DNA of 64,000 bases from Erysipelatoclostridium sp. An173. Lineage in GTDB: Bacteria > Bacillota_I > Bacilli_A > Erysipelotrichales > Coprobacillaceae. The translations under genes were made by a program, and so were the position numbers. Positions 52,365 through 54,710 of this stretch are shown here, piece after piece (the first letter of the stretch is position 1; each line of letters opens with the position of its first letter). The notes below the pieces were generated by a model. The model ran no database searches and was not told the origin of the DNA. It saw only the letters and a list, made by a program, of their open reading frames with translations. The stretch lies in contig NZ_NFKR01000002.1 of NCBI RefSeq assembly GCF_002160495.1, positions 62,001-126,000 on the forward strand, read 5' to 3'.

Positions 52365-52647
52365 CCTATATTTAAAAAACATTATTTTTTGATGTTATTA
52401 TCAAATTAACTTATTTTACCTTATTAAACCATATTTTTTTACATTGTGTTATTTTACATATAAAAACTATTTATAACTATAAATAATCATATCCAAAAAT
52501 TAAAAAAATTCAATTCTATAAAAACAAGACAACTAGCTAATTTACAAAAATAAAATAATAAAAAAATCACAAATAACAAAAAGATTAACTATTAAATATT
52601 TTTCTGTAAATCATAAAAACATTTGATTCTATCAATGTTTTCTAGAT
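52365..52647. other. A+T-rich spacer without genes
   Basis: About 280 bp, close to 90% A+T, between the carboxypeptidase terminator and the promoter of the peptide locus. No ribosome site with an open frame, no structured RNA and no repeat was seen. The length and composition resemble an insulating or laterally acquired boundary, but nothing proves that. Confidence 0.5.
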
Positions 52648-52722
52648 TTGACGTAAAATTTAGAAGTATTATAATTAATGTTATAAGAATATATACAATA
52701 ATTGTTAATGTTGTATAACATT
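52648..52722 (+). promoter_or_regulatory. Promoter and operator-like palindromes of the peptide locus
   Basis: TTGACG (52648-52653), 16-bp spacer, perfect TATAAT (52670-52675). Straight after it, AATGTTATA (52677-52685) and its reverse complement TATAACATT (52714-52722) form a 9-bp inverted repeat. The right arm is itself part of AATGTT-GTAT-AACATT (52707-52722). The start point falls between, a typical repressor position. Confidence 0.65.
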
Positions 52723-52748
52723 CTTAATGCAGGAAGGAGAGGGGTCTT

Positions 52749-53114
52749 GTGAAAACATATACTAAACCAGTAGTAAATTTTAACAAAGATGGTAATACTA
52801 AAAATGTTAAAACACTGGAAGATATAGATACTAAAACTCTATTTCGAATCAATCCTAATTATTTACTTCGCCAAGTAGCTGATGATTATGTAATAATTCC
52901 GATTGATGATGAATTAGAACTTAGCAATGCAATCATGACTCCAAATCGTAGTGCTGTTTTTATCTGGAACGAGTTTTTAGATGCTAATACGATTGAAAAT
53001 GTCGTAAAAAAAGCATTATCAAAATACGATGTTTCAGAAGAAACAATTAGAAGGGATGTTAGAAGATTCGTTTTTGAATCTCTTAACAAAAAGATTATTG
53101 AGGAGGTAAATTAA
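52749..53114 (+). CDS. PqqD-like RRE protein of a putative RiPP locus
   Basis: A 121-residue protein whose residues ~38-119 fit the PqqD/RiPP-recognition-element fold: YLLRQVADDYVIIPI, then SAVFIWNEFLD, then KALSKYDVSEETIRRDVRRFVFESLNKKIIEE. Such proteins bind peptide leaders and hand them to radical SAM enzymes. A ~35-residue N-terminal extension (MKTYTKPVVNFNKDG) is unusual and resembles the start of the next protein (aromatic, Pro, Val). The start is GTG 52749 after GGAGAGGGG. It ends 1 nt before the next ATG. Confidence 0.75.
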   Translation: MKTYTKPVVNFNKDGNTKNVKTLEDIDTKTLFRINPNYLLRQVADDYVIIPIDDELELSNAIMTPNRSAVFIWNEFLDANTIENVVKKALSKYDVSEETIRRDVRRFVFESLNKKIIEEVN

Positions 53115-53115
53115 T

Positions 53116-53553
53116 ATGTTAGAAAAATGGGAAACACCAAGAGTAACAATTCAAGAATTTGAACCAAACGAATATGTAGCTGTTTGTTGGGGAGTTGCTT
53201 GTGATGTTAGCTGGGCTAATAATTACGAACAAAAATATGGATTTTGGGATGGTGGAGATGTATCGCATGCTAGTGATCATTGTGGTAATTCTTCTAATCA
53301 GGTAATTTATGATCATAATGACGATGGTGTAGGTGAAGCAATGGTGGAAACTGGTACCGATGGATTAGGAACTCTAGATTGTACTATTTATACTGATTAT
53401 GATTGGTATACAGGAAGATTTACTGGACAAACTTCTGCTTCACAAGTAGAGGTTGGGGATTTGATTTATTGGACTACAAGTTCTGGTAATCGTACTTGGC
53501 ATCATAGAGGGACTGTAACAGCTACTGCAGAAGGTCACCCAAATCGTTCTTAA
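53116..53553 (+). CDS. Cys-containing protein with leader-like N-terminus, candidate RiPP precursor
   Basis: A 145-residue protein with no signal peptide. The N-terminus (WETPRVTIQEFEPNEYVAVC) looks like a peptide leader ending at an EYVAVCW site. Cysteines stand at 24, 29, 56 and 89. The rest is rich in Asp, Gly, Ser, Thr, Trp and Tyr. The last third (EVGDLIYWTTSSG...HHRGTV) recalls beta-barrel peptidase-like GDLIYW segments, so it may be a folded substrate rather than a short peptide. Strong ribosome site (GAGGAGGTAAATTAAT), 1 nt after the PqqD-like gene. A terminator follows. Family not recognised. Confidence 0.65.
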   Translation: MLEKWETPRVTIQEFEPNEYVAVCWGVACDVSWANNYEQKYGFWDGGDVSHASDHCGNSSNQVIYDHNDDGVGEAMVETGTDGLGTLDCTIYTDYDWYTGRFTGQTSASQVEVGDLIYWTTSSGNRTWHHRGTVTATAEGHPNRS

Positions 53554-53565
53554 TATTAATAAGCT

Positions 53566-53592
53566 AAAAACCGAGCAATCGGTTTTTATTTG
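53566..53592 (+). terminator. Attenuator-like terminator between precursor and radical SAM genes
   Basis: AAAAACCGA (53566-53574), GCAA loop, TCGGTTTTT (53579-53587), then ATTTG. It would lower expression of the enzyme relative to its substrate. Confidence 0.75.
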
Positions 53593-53606
53593 TATAGGAG
53601 AAAAAT

Positions 53607-54710
53607 ATGGATTTTTTAGATGGGGAAAATACAGTCGAAAAGATGTTGATAAAACATGGGGTTAAAGATAAAAGGCCGGTTAGTGGTACTTTGGAGTTAA
53701 CACCGTTGTGTAATATGAACTGTGATATGTGTTATGTTCATTTAAGCAATGAAGAGATGAATAAACAGGGGGAGATATTAGACATTGATAAGTGGCTTGA
53801 TTTGGTGGAACAGTTGGAAAAAGCTGGGGTTTTATTTATTATGTTAACTGGTGGTGAACCGTTATTGTTTCCAGGTTTTAAAGAATTATATTTAAAACTT
53901 AAAAGAATGGGAATGGTAATAACAGTTAATACTAATGGAACGTTGATTGATGAAAAGTGGGCAGCTTTTTTTGGTGAAAATAAACCACGGCGTATTAATA
54001 TTACTTTATATGGTAATGATGAAAAAATTTATCGTGATTTGTGTCATTATCCAGGTGGTTTTGAAAAGACAGTTCGAGCAATTAAATTATTAAAAGATCA
54101 TGGTGTAAAGGTAAAGATGAATGGTAGTGTTACTAAAGCTAATTTTGATCAGATCGATGATATGTATCGGATTGCTCAGGAACTAGATGTTCCTTTACAT
54201 ATGGATACTTATATGTTACCAGGATTAAAGGATCGTTTTAAAGCGTTTGAAGAACAATCTCGTTTAAGTCCTGAAAATGTAGCTCAAGCAAGAATTAAAG
54301 TGTTAAAAAATGAACTAGGTGATGAGGTGTTTTTAAATTACGTTGATTCAATGTTGATGAAGGTCAAGCAGCAATATAATTATGGTTGTGGTATTGAGTG
54401 TCAAGCTGGTAATTCTTCATTTATGGTTAACTGGCAGGGATTAATGAAACCTTGTGTTAGTTTGTTTACACCAGCAGTAGACGTTTTTAAAACTGGTTTT
54501 GAAAATGCCTGGAAACAGATCGTAACTGAAAGTAAAGAATTAAAAATAAATGAAAAATGTGCTCAATGTAAATTAAGACCACTTTGTAATACGTGTGTAG
54601 CGACAGCTAATTGGGAAACGGGTAGTTTTACAGAAATTCCTGAATATTGCTGCAAAGAGGCTAAGGAAATGTTACGGCTGTTGTTATTGGAAAAGAATAA
54701 TAATCAATAA
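53607..54710 (+). CDS. Radical SAM/SPASM enzyme of a putative RiPP locus
   Basis: A 367-residue peptide-modifying-type radical SAM enzyme. The SAM-cluster motif is CNMNCDMC at about residues 32-39 (CxxxCxxC), followed by TGGEPLL near residue 85. The SPASM-like C-terminus has Cys at about 262, 266, 285, then CAQCKLRPLCNTC (~313-325) and a CC pair near 348, enough for one or two auxiliary clusters. It resembles enzymes that form thioether or C-C links in peptides. Ribosome site AGGAG; 53 nt after the candidate substrate gene. Confidence 0.88.
   Translation: MDFLDGENTVEKMLIKHGVKDKRPVSGTLELTPLCNMNCDMCYVHLSNEEMNKQGEILDIDKWLDLVEQLEKAGVLFIMLTGGEPLLFPGFKELYLKLKRMGMVITVNTNGTLIDEKWAAFFGENKPRRINITLYGNDEKIYRDLCHYPGGFEKTVRAIKLLKDHGVKVKMNGSVTKANFDQIDDMYRIAQELDVPLHMDTYMLPGLKDRFKAFEEQSRLSPENVAQARIKVLKNELGDEVFLNYVDSMLMKVKQQYNYGCGIECQAGNSSFMVNWQGLMKPCVSLFTPAVDVFKTGFENAWKQIVTESKELKINEKCAQCKLRPLCNTCVATANWETGSFTEIPEYCCKEAKEMLRLLLLEKNNNQ

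Follow-up and report, generated by a model that had tools for sequence, protein, structure and literature searches.

The window analysed here is a stretch of 64,000 nucleotides from Erysipelatoclostridium sp. An173, and the locus of interest within it encodes a PqqD-family RRE protein, a protein of 145 residues and a radical SAM/SPASM enzyme (Table 1). The initial annotation had described these genes as a set lying in one direction, which is confirmed, all three being on the + strand with a spacing of 1 nt between the RRE gene and the substrate gene. The locus start given by that annotation, 52640, encloses a promoter-like site which is the best of the seven such sites in the region (8.3 being expected); no inverted-repeat switch was found around it, and the window promoter is regarded as fixed. 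Two terminator-like sites (0.3 expected) represent the two strands of a single hairpin which, lying between the substrate and enzyme genes, would favour the substrate over the enzyme in amount. The locus is flanked by an M32-type carboxypeptidase gene upstream and an rRNA methylase gene downstream.

Table 1. Features of the locus in window coordinates (feature, position, strand, remarks)
Sigma-70 promoter-like site	52648..52675	+	TTGACG-16-TATAAT, 11/12 consensus match only
PqqD-family RRE protein	52749..53114	+	121 aa, GTG start, PF05402 E 7.8e-12
N-terminal leader-like extension of RRE protein	52749..52781	+	MKTYTKPVVNF, YxxPxV within; from RRE alignment
Substrate protein, 145 aa	53116..53553	+	ATG start; homologues and profile matches
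Substrate leader	53116..53187	+	MLEKWETPRVTIQEFEPNEYVAVC; WxxP, 15 residues, then Cys; predicted disordered
Substrate core domain	53188..53550	+	beta-rich (predicted), strong purifying selection; without significant PDB fold match
C-terminal Ser codon (Ser145)	53548..53550	+	candidate kinase target in the family
Terminator-like hairpin, possible attenuator	53565..53588	+	between substrate and enzyme genes
Radical SAM/SPASM enzyme, 367 aa	53607..54710	+	PF04055 E 3.4e-28

The 145-aa protein had been noted as having no known family, and it is indeed unmatched in Pfam, PHROGs and PADLOC and has only insignificant matches in NCBIfam; it belongs to an uncatalogued family. A congener has an orthologue with 59% identity, and a Lachnospiraceae MAG (locus L096) one with 88% identity overall and 92% in the core, so that the reading frame is not a chance one. 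Application of a leader model to the gene neighbourhoods yielded 47 non-duplicate members, 46 of them at E<=0.01 and one (L009:11450-11926) included for its match to the window protein, with lengths of 98-176 residues (median 140). The docking motif [W/Y/F]xxP is present in all 47, and a Cys follows it after 16-21 residues in 46 (after exactly 19 in 37); the leader-like start proposed from the window protein is thus kept by its homologues, with the Cys at its end. The window protein has Cys at positions 24, 29, 56 and 89. Among the substrates the number of Cys varies from 2 to 6, only the leader-end Cys and a second one within 30 residues being near-universal, so that the four Cys pointed out in the annotation are not a signature of the family. 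The C-terminal residue is Ser in 44 of the 47 substrates and in 34 (6.5%) of 525 further ORFs from these loci, an enrichment with a binomial probability of about 7e-49, a value which overstates independence because the members are related. This conserved Ser, like the recombinase-linked variation described below, comes from the relatives and is invisible in the window alone. Two types of core could be aligned, ...WHHxGxV...HPNRS (alignment A4) and ...HCTTNLDxxxWxTAKS (A5). The combination of a [W/Y]xxP-x15-C leader with a C-terminal Ser makes this substrate family easy to find.

A profile of the relatives of the RRE protein matches PqqD and lasso RREs of the PDB (9x8z, 9x90 and 5v1u). In the alignment, 5 of the 12 RRE proteins have a leader-like N-terminal segment of their own. 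Such starts are seen in the window and at L096 9030, L102 2799, L099 2851 and L124 9123, the segments being MKTYTKPVVNF, MKPYKKPEFHF, VKKYKKPEFHF, MKFDKPEMHY and MMRYEKPSVHV. The segment may dock on the groove of its own RRE as a form of self-inhibition, or the RRE protein may itself be a substrate.

The third gene product shows a weak match to the SPASM domain (PF13186, E 0.017); its seven C-terminal cysteines (C265, C283, C318, C321, C327, C330 and C349) and the CxxxCxxC motif are, however, invariant in the relatives (enzyme alignment A2). No NCBIfam equivalog scores above its cut-off with this enzyme, and PADLOC reports only generic viperin radical SAM similarity at the locus. An origin from phages, plasmids or defence systems was considered and rejected, the substrate being unmatched in phages, the enzyme in plasmids and the 16-base element TATAATCTTATTTGTA, described below, in viral contigs.

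The core of the substrate is under strong constraint. Between the window and L096 it is 92% identical, with pN 0.043 and a pS of 0.88 that denotes saturated synonymous change, the corresponding pN values being 0.186 for the leader and 0.317 for the enzyme; in this one pair the core thus evolves about seven times more slowly than the enzyme. The same contrast between leader and core is seen in two G004/Anaerostipes pairs. Recent recombinational swapping, which might have explained cores 92% identical as proteins between families, was rejected because the synonymous sites are saturated; the cores are conserved and not recently exchanged. Judged by these substitution patterns, the constrained core is unlike a hypervariable RiPP core. 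AlphaFold2 models of the window substrate predict an ordered, mostly beta core (mean pLDDT 76.6), with low confidence at the leader and the last seven residues, and the second core type behaves similarly (pLDDT 83.5); in such models a flexible leader and a free C-terminal tail would fit the handling proposed below for both ends. Searches of the PDB with the two core models gave no significant fold (best E 0.23 and 0.28), and a PDB profile search with the core found no match. Coevolution with the enzyme does not discriminate between leader and core (Mantel r 0.34 and 0.33).

These properties bear on the possibility that the locus encodes a conventional Cys-crosslinked RiPP (sactipeptide or ranthipeptide) with a longer precursor, in which thioethers would be formed from Cys and a short peptide released. 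Such a product would suit a SPASM enzyme with an RRE partner and a Cys-bearing substrate, and the window enzyme is weakly similar to the PapB, StsB and SkfB maturases; the models of these families, however, score far below cut-off (PapB 74/340, StsB 72/625 and AlbA 67/850 bits), the constraint extends over the whole of a core predicted to be folded rather than over a short segment, and the Cys number varies from 2 to 6 among the substrates. We consider this explanation improbable.

A search with the single sequence of the 145-aa protein found relatives in 3 of 98 related genomes, its own included. The profile search that the initial annotation had proposed was also run, and gave substrate matches in 6 of the 43 genomes of the taxonomic family; a close radical SAM enzyme (E<1e-60) is present in exactly these six. 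Full overlap by chance has an exact probability of 1.6e-7 under the assumption that the genomes are independent. With the leader and Cys pattern conserved and the two genes co-occurring in 6/43 genomes, neither of the outcomes named in advance as contrary, that is, a substrate occurring widely without the enzymes or homologues with no conserved leader and Cys pattern, was found. The substrate and radical SAM genes are mostly about 50-130 nt apart, a count of adjacency that is biased since the enzyme was the means of finding several of the radical SAM loci. Substrate genes remote from every radical SAM gene occur as orphans at L009 11450-12640 and L062 8731-9129 (G022), which suggests that such cassettes are mobile or are matured in trans. 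One orphan pair adjoins a group II intron-type reverse transcriptase.

Substrates placed away from the enzyme gene, and a core that is strongly conserved and predicted to fold, would also be expected if the 145-aa protein were a secreted effector or surface protein in which [W/Y]xxP did no more than mark the protein for export or processing, while the radical SAM enzyme acted on something else or was a regulator. The complete co-occurrence of substrate and enzyme among the genomes sampled in the family speaks against this, as does the short gap usual between their genes even when the retrieval bias is kept in mind, and we rate it as quite improbable. The reading borne out by the retained leader motif, the Cys and the co-occurrence is the one originally proposed, in which RRE, radical SAM enzyme and substrate function together; on the best interpretation, which is probably correct, a large protein substrate is modified by the radical SAM enzyme under the guidance of the RRE.

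The observation that no protease or exporter gene adjoins the three genes holds for the window, where a leader peptidase and an exporter are absent, but both are present in full-size relatives. In these, the substrate, enzyme and RRE genes lie together with a gene for an HprK-like P-loop protein within capsule/EPS clusters that also include Peptidase_S24/archaeal SPase I, an MsbA-type ABC exporter and an NTP_transf_5 protein, and adjoin CpsB/Wzz-like genes. The RRE, HprK-like kinase, SpI-type peptidase, MsbA-like exporter and NTP transferase are found together at L058, for example, and not at the window locus; in the window's genome (G000) contig C89 carries the genes for the signal peptidase and the exporter, C54 that for the nucleotidyltransferase and C91 one for a kinase-like protein. 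A view of the locus as stand-alone, or as necessarily a new class, is not supported, the missing parts being found in full-size relatives and partly elsewhere in the same genome. The three window genes resemble a satellite of a larger system that is LPP-like and linked to the capsule.

The kinase-like protein is present in 6/6 substrate genomes (E<1e-95), and its alignment has an invariant His, a P-loop APSGTGKST and an Asp. Its assignment to HprK is by motif and weak Pfam matches (PF07475 in 3/12, best E 9e-4), and a PDB profile search with it found no match. Characterised lasso kinases likewise carry His, Gly-x-Gly-Lys-Ser and Asp-Asp (PMC10368454), although here the first Asp of the pair is replaced by Gly. 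Since paeninodin-type lasso kinases act on a C-terminal Ser (PMC10368454), the C-terminal Ser of the substrates is the natural candidate for the target of the kinase-like protein. Phosphorylation or glycosylation of this residue is plausible for the full-size loci and less so for the window copy; counting against it is the occurrence of the kinase-like gene of the window's genome only on the 4.9-kb contig C91. This contig (L055) and contig C113 of G016 (L070), from two genera, carry a near-identical second set of PqqD, substrate, HprK-like and radical SAM genes, with a substrate beginning MKKKYKKPEIVFEKL... and ending in Ser, and transposase-like remnants adjoin the set. The C91 set may be recently transferred or contaminant DNA. 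On C89 (L054, 452-1528), the radical SAM gene of the capsule-linked locus has an in-frame TGA in its N-terminal part, at a contig start, and is possibly broken.

Comparison with known systems places the locus near two kinds of phospho-RiPP. Linear polyphosphorylated peptide (LPP) clusters (Popov et al. 2026, Nat Commun; PMC13381572) resemble the full-size relatives in having a discrete RRE, a YxxPxV-type leader, variable precursors, an HprK-like kinase, an archaeal/SipW-type signal peptidase, an MsbA-like exporter, an NTP transferase and capsular polysaccharide loci. LPP precursors are 35-200 residues long (PMC13381572), among which the 145-aa protein, annotated as much longer than usual, is of normal length, and LPP and lasso RREs bind a [Y/W]xxP motif (PMC13381572). 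The differences are nevertheless considerable. Of the LPP leader consensus YxxPxVLxHQxIxFETxxS only [W/Y]xxP is common, being followed here by xxE-x-F-xx-NEYVAAC, with NEYVAAC at the end of the leader, and in LPP by LxHQxIxFETxxS; LPP kinases phosphorylate Ser3 of the core, whereas the conserved Ser here is C-terminal and alignments A4 and A5 show no conserved Ser at the position equivalent to LPP Ser3; the cores here, unlike those of LPP, are large, conserved and predicted to be folded; and neither a radical SAM enzyme nor a recombinase or inversion is mentioned in the LPP text (PMC13381572). Paeninodin-type lasso systems likewise combine a [W/Y]xxP leader with a discrete RRE and an NTP transferase partner, and have an HprK-like kinase acting on a C-terminal Ser, the candidate target here; they differ in that a radical SAM enzyme is present here and the substrate is a protein domain; no macrolactam synthetase (C protein) or B2 protease was found among the ORFs of the window locus, or by eye in the listed neighbourhoods. 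An encoded precursor with a conserved leader and an adjoining RRE and modifying enzyme mark the locus as a probable RRE-dependent RiPP locus. It is best grouped as a variant among the LPP/lasso phospho-RiPPs that belongs to neither family, since the LPP leader consensus and the lasso cyclase are both wanting.

Less extensive likenesses are seen elsewhere. The SynChlorMet (SCM) cassette (TIGR04248-04251) also contains radical SAM enzymes (ScmE/F), a PqqD-like ScmD and ScmC, but the HprK-like protein here matches ScmC only weakly (E 0.0012) and all matches to the SCM models are far below cut-offs. PqqA/PqqD/PqqE and WgkB-type maturases similarly pair a separate PqqD-family RRE with a SPASM radical SAM enzyme, yet the scores are low (PqqE 67.9/381 bits, WgkB 66.2/650 bits) and the substrate here is unrelated and far longer. 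Shufflons and invertible promoters resemble the arrays of some relatives in having a recombinase gene between opposite short sites, one promoter and several selectable genes; no paper tying such an inversion switch to radical SAM RiPP substrates was found in the literature searched.

These arrays occur in G004, G008 and G036, where oppositely directed substrate genes flank a tyrosine recombinase gene (PF00589) whose orthologues at 72-79% are confined to the three genomes, the next best elsewhere being at 46%. The 16-base element TATAATCTTATTTGTA precedes the substrate start by about 30-50 bases; 12 exact copies of it are present in the 43 genomes, all upstream of substrate genes, with a thirteenth, carrying one mismatch, in the G008 array. 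One copy in each of the recombinase-bearing arrays (3/3), on the divergent 5' side of the recombinase gene, has a -35 box (TTTGCA-18-TATAAT), and the others are without it. Oppositely oriented recombination-type sites with an adjacent recombinase are present in L008, L059 and L064. The simplest reading of these sequences would be a single promoter on an invertible segment that bears the recombinase, with flanking cassettes also able to invert. In Lachnospiraceae/Clostridia (L096, L102 and L099) a serine recombinase gene (PF00239) precedes the RRE gene, and in L096 and L102 inverted repeats TCAAATAGTGTAC...GTACACNATTTGA, spanning 166 nt, lie between the two; a weaker version was recognised by eye in L099. 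An apparent invertible promoter thus stands before the RRE-substrate-radical SAM operon at L096 8808-8977, L102 2596-2761 and L099 about 2640-2810. A promoter scan gave an ambiguous orientation in L096 and L102, with plus-strand matches at chance level, and a clear minus-strand promoter in L099 only, for which reason the assembled state is not claimed to be off.

The TATAATCTTATTTGTA elements and the L096/L102 repeats might instead be duplicated promoters or operators, and the recombinase genes hitch-hiking mobile elements; the -10-like TATAAT within the element, the longer upstream homology common to paralogues of one array and the single orientation observed per array, in one genome per species, would all agree with this. 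Yet the element is common to very different substrates and genera with differing flanks, all but one copy per array have no -35 box, the sites bound the recombinase gene in opposite orientation, and an unrelated serine recombinase with repeats of its own occupies the matching place in Lachnospiraceae/Clostridia. This alternative is given a low probability, and DNA inversion in the relatives, as we infer it, is well supported by the anatomy of the loci.

The window locus has neither TATAATCTTATTTGTA nor a recombinase, no relic of the site beyond chance was found there, and the window's genome has no close orthologue of the tyrosine recombinase. In the congener G004 (L056), the M32-type carboxypeptidase and rRNA methylase genes flank the corresponding place, where an RRE gene and two radical SAM genes, but no substrate gene, are found. 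In the congener G008, an RRE/substrate/recombinase array on contig L059 adjoins the rRNA methylase gene, and next to the M32 gene, on a second contig (L060), is a further RRE/kinase/radical SAM/substrate set, so that this chromosomal slot is occupied by an array in a close relative. The window, at the chromosomal place of a congener's array, has a fixed version with one substrate.

The scheme that we infer, in every chemical step, in the Ser target, in secretion and in the occurrence of DNA inversion, would run as follows. The RRE protein would bind the WxxP leader of the 145-aa protein and present it to the radical SAM/SPASM enzyme, which would modify the core during or after its folding, the likeliest place being close to the conserved Cys24/Cys29 pair at the core start. 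In full-size relatives the archaeal-type signal peptidase would remove the leader, the MsbA-like exporter would move the protein out and the HprK-like kinase, followed perhaps by the nucleotidyltransferase, would act on the C-terminal Ser; in the window's genome the peptidase, the exporter and the kinase would work in trans. Site-specific recombinases of several relatives probably invert DNA, thereby selecting a single substrate from several for expression or switching the operon on or off. Rather than a small peptide antibiotic, the product has the look of a chemically modified protein, secreted or at the surface, that can be switched. A bolder proposal, which we hold to be rather unlikely, is a phase-variable coat in which recombinases choose a frozen core protein, the radical SAM enzyme modifies it, and the HprK-like kinase and nucleotidyltransferase attach its C-terminal Ser to exopolysaccharide; if true, gut Bacillota would possess a RiPP-type pathway to protein-glycan conjugates, with variation of antigens or phage receptors.

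Work on radical SAM RiPP enzymes usually concerns short peptides, and the partner here looks like a folded domain more conserved than the enzyme itself. The set joins radical SAM RiPPs, DNA inversion in gut bacteria and the phospho-RiPPs (LPP and paeninodin), which are described as having no known role, and, if the reading is right, would give capsule-linked phospho-RiPPs a testable role as surface or secreted proteins varied by DNA inversion. Sister capsule-linked loci (L069 9548, L071 8453 and L073 7046) encode radical SAM enzymes 30-35% identical, with a different protein of 128-138 residues between the radical SAM and kinase-like genes, and from these loci other large substrates probably exist.
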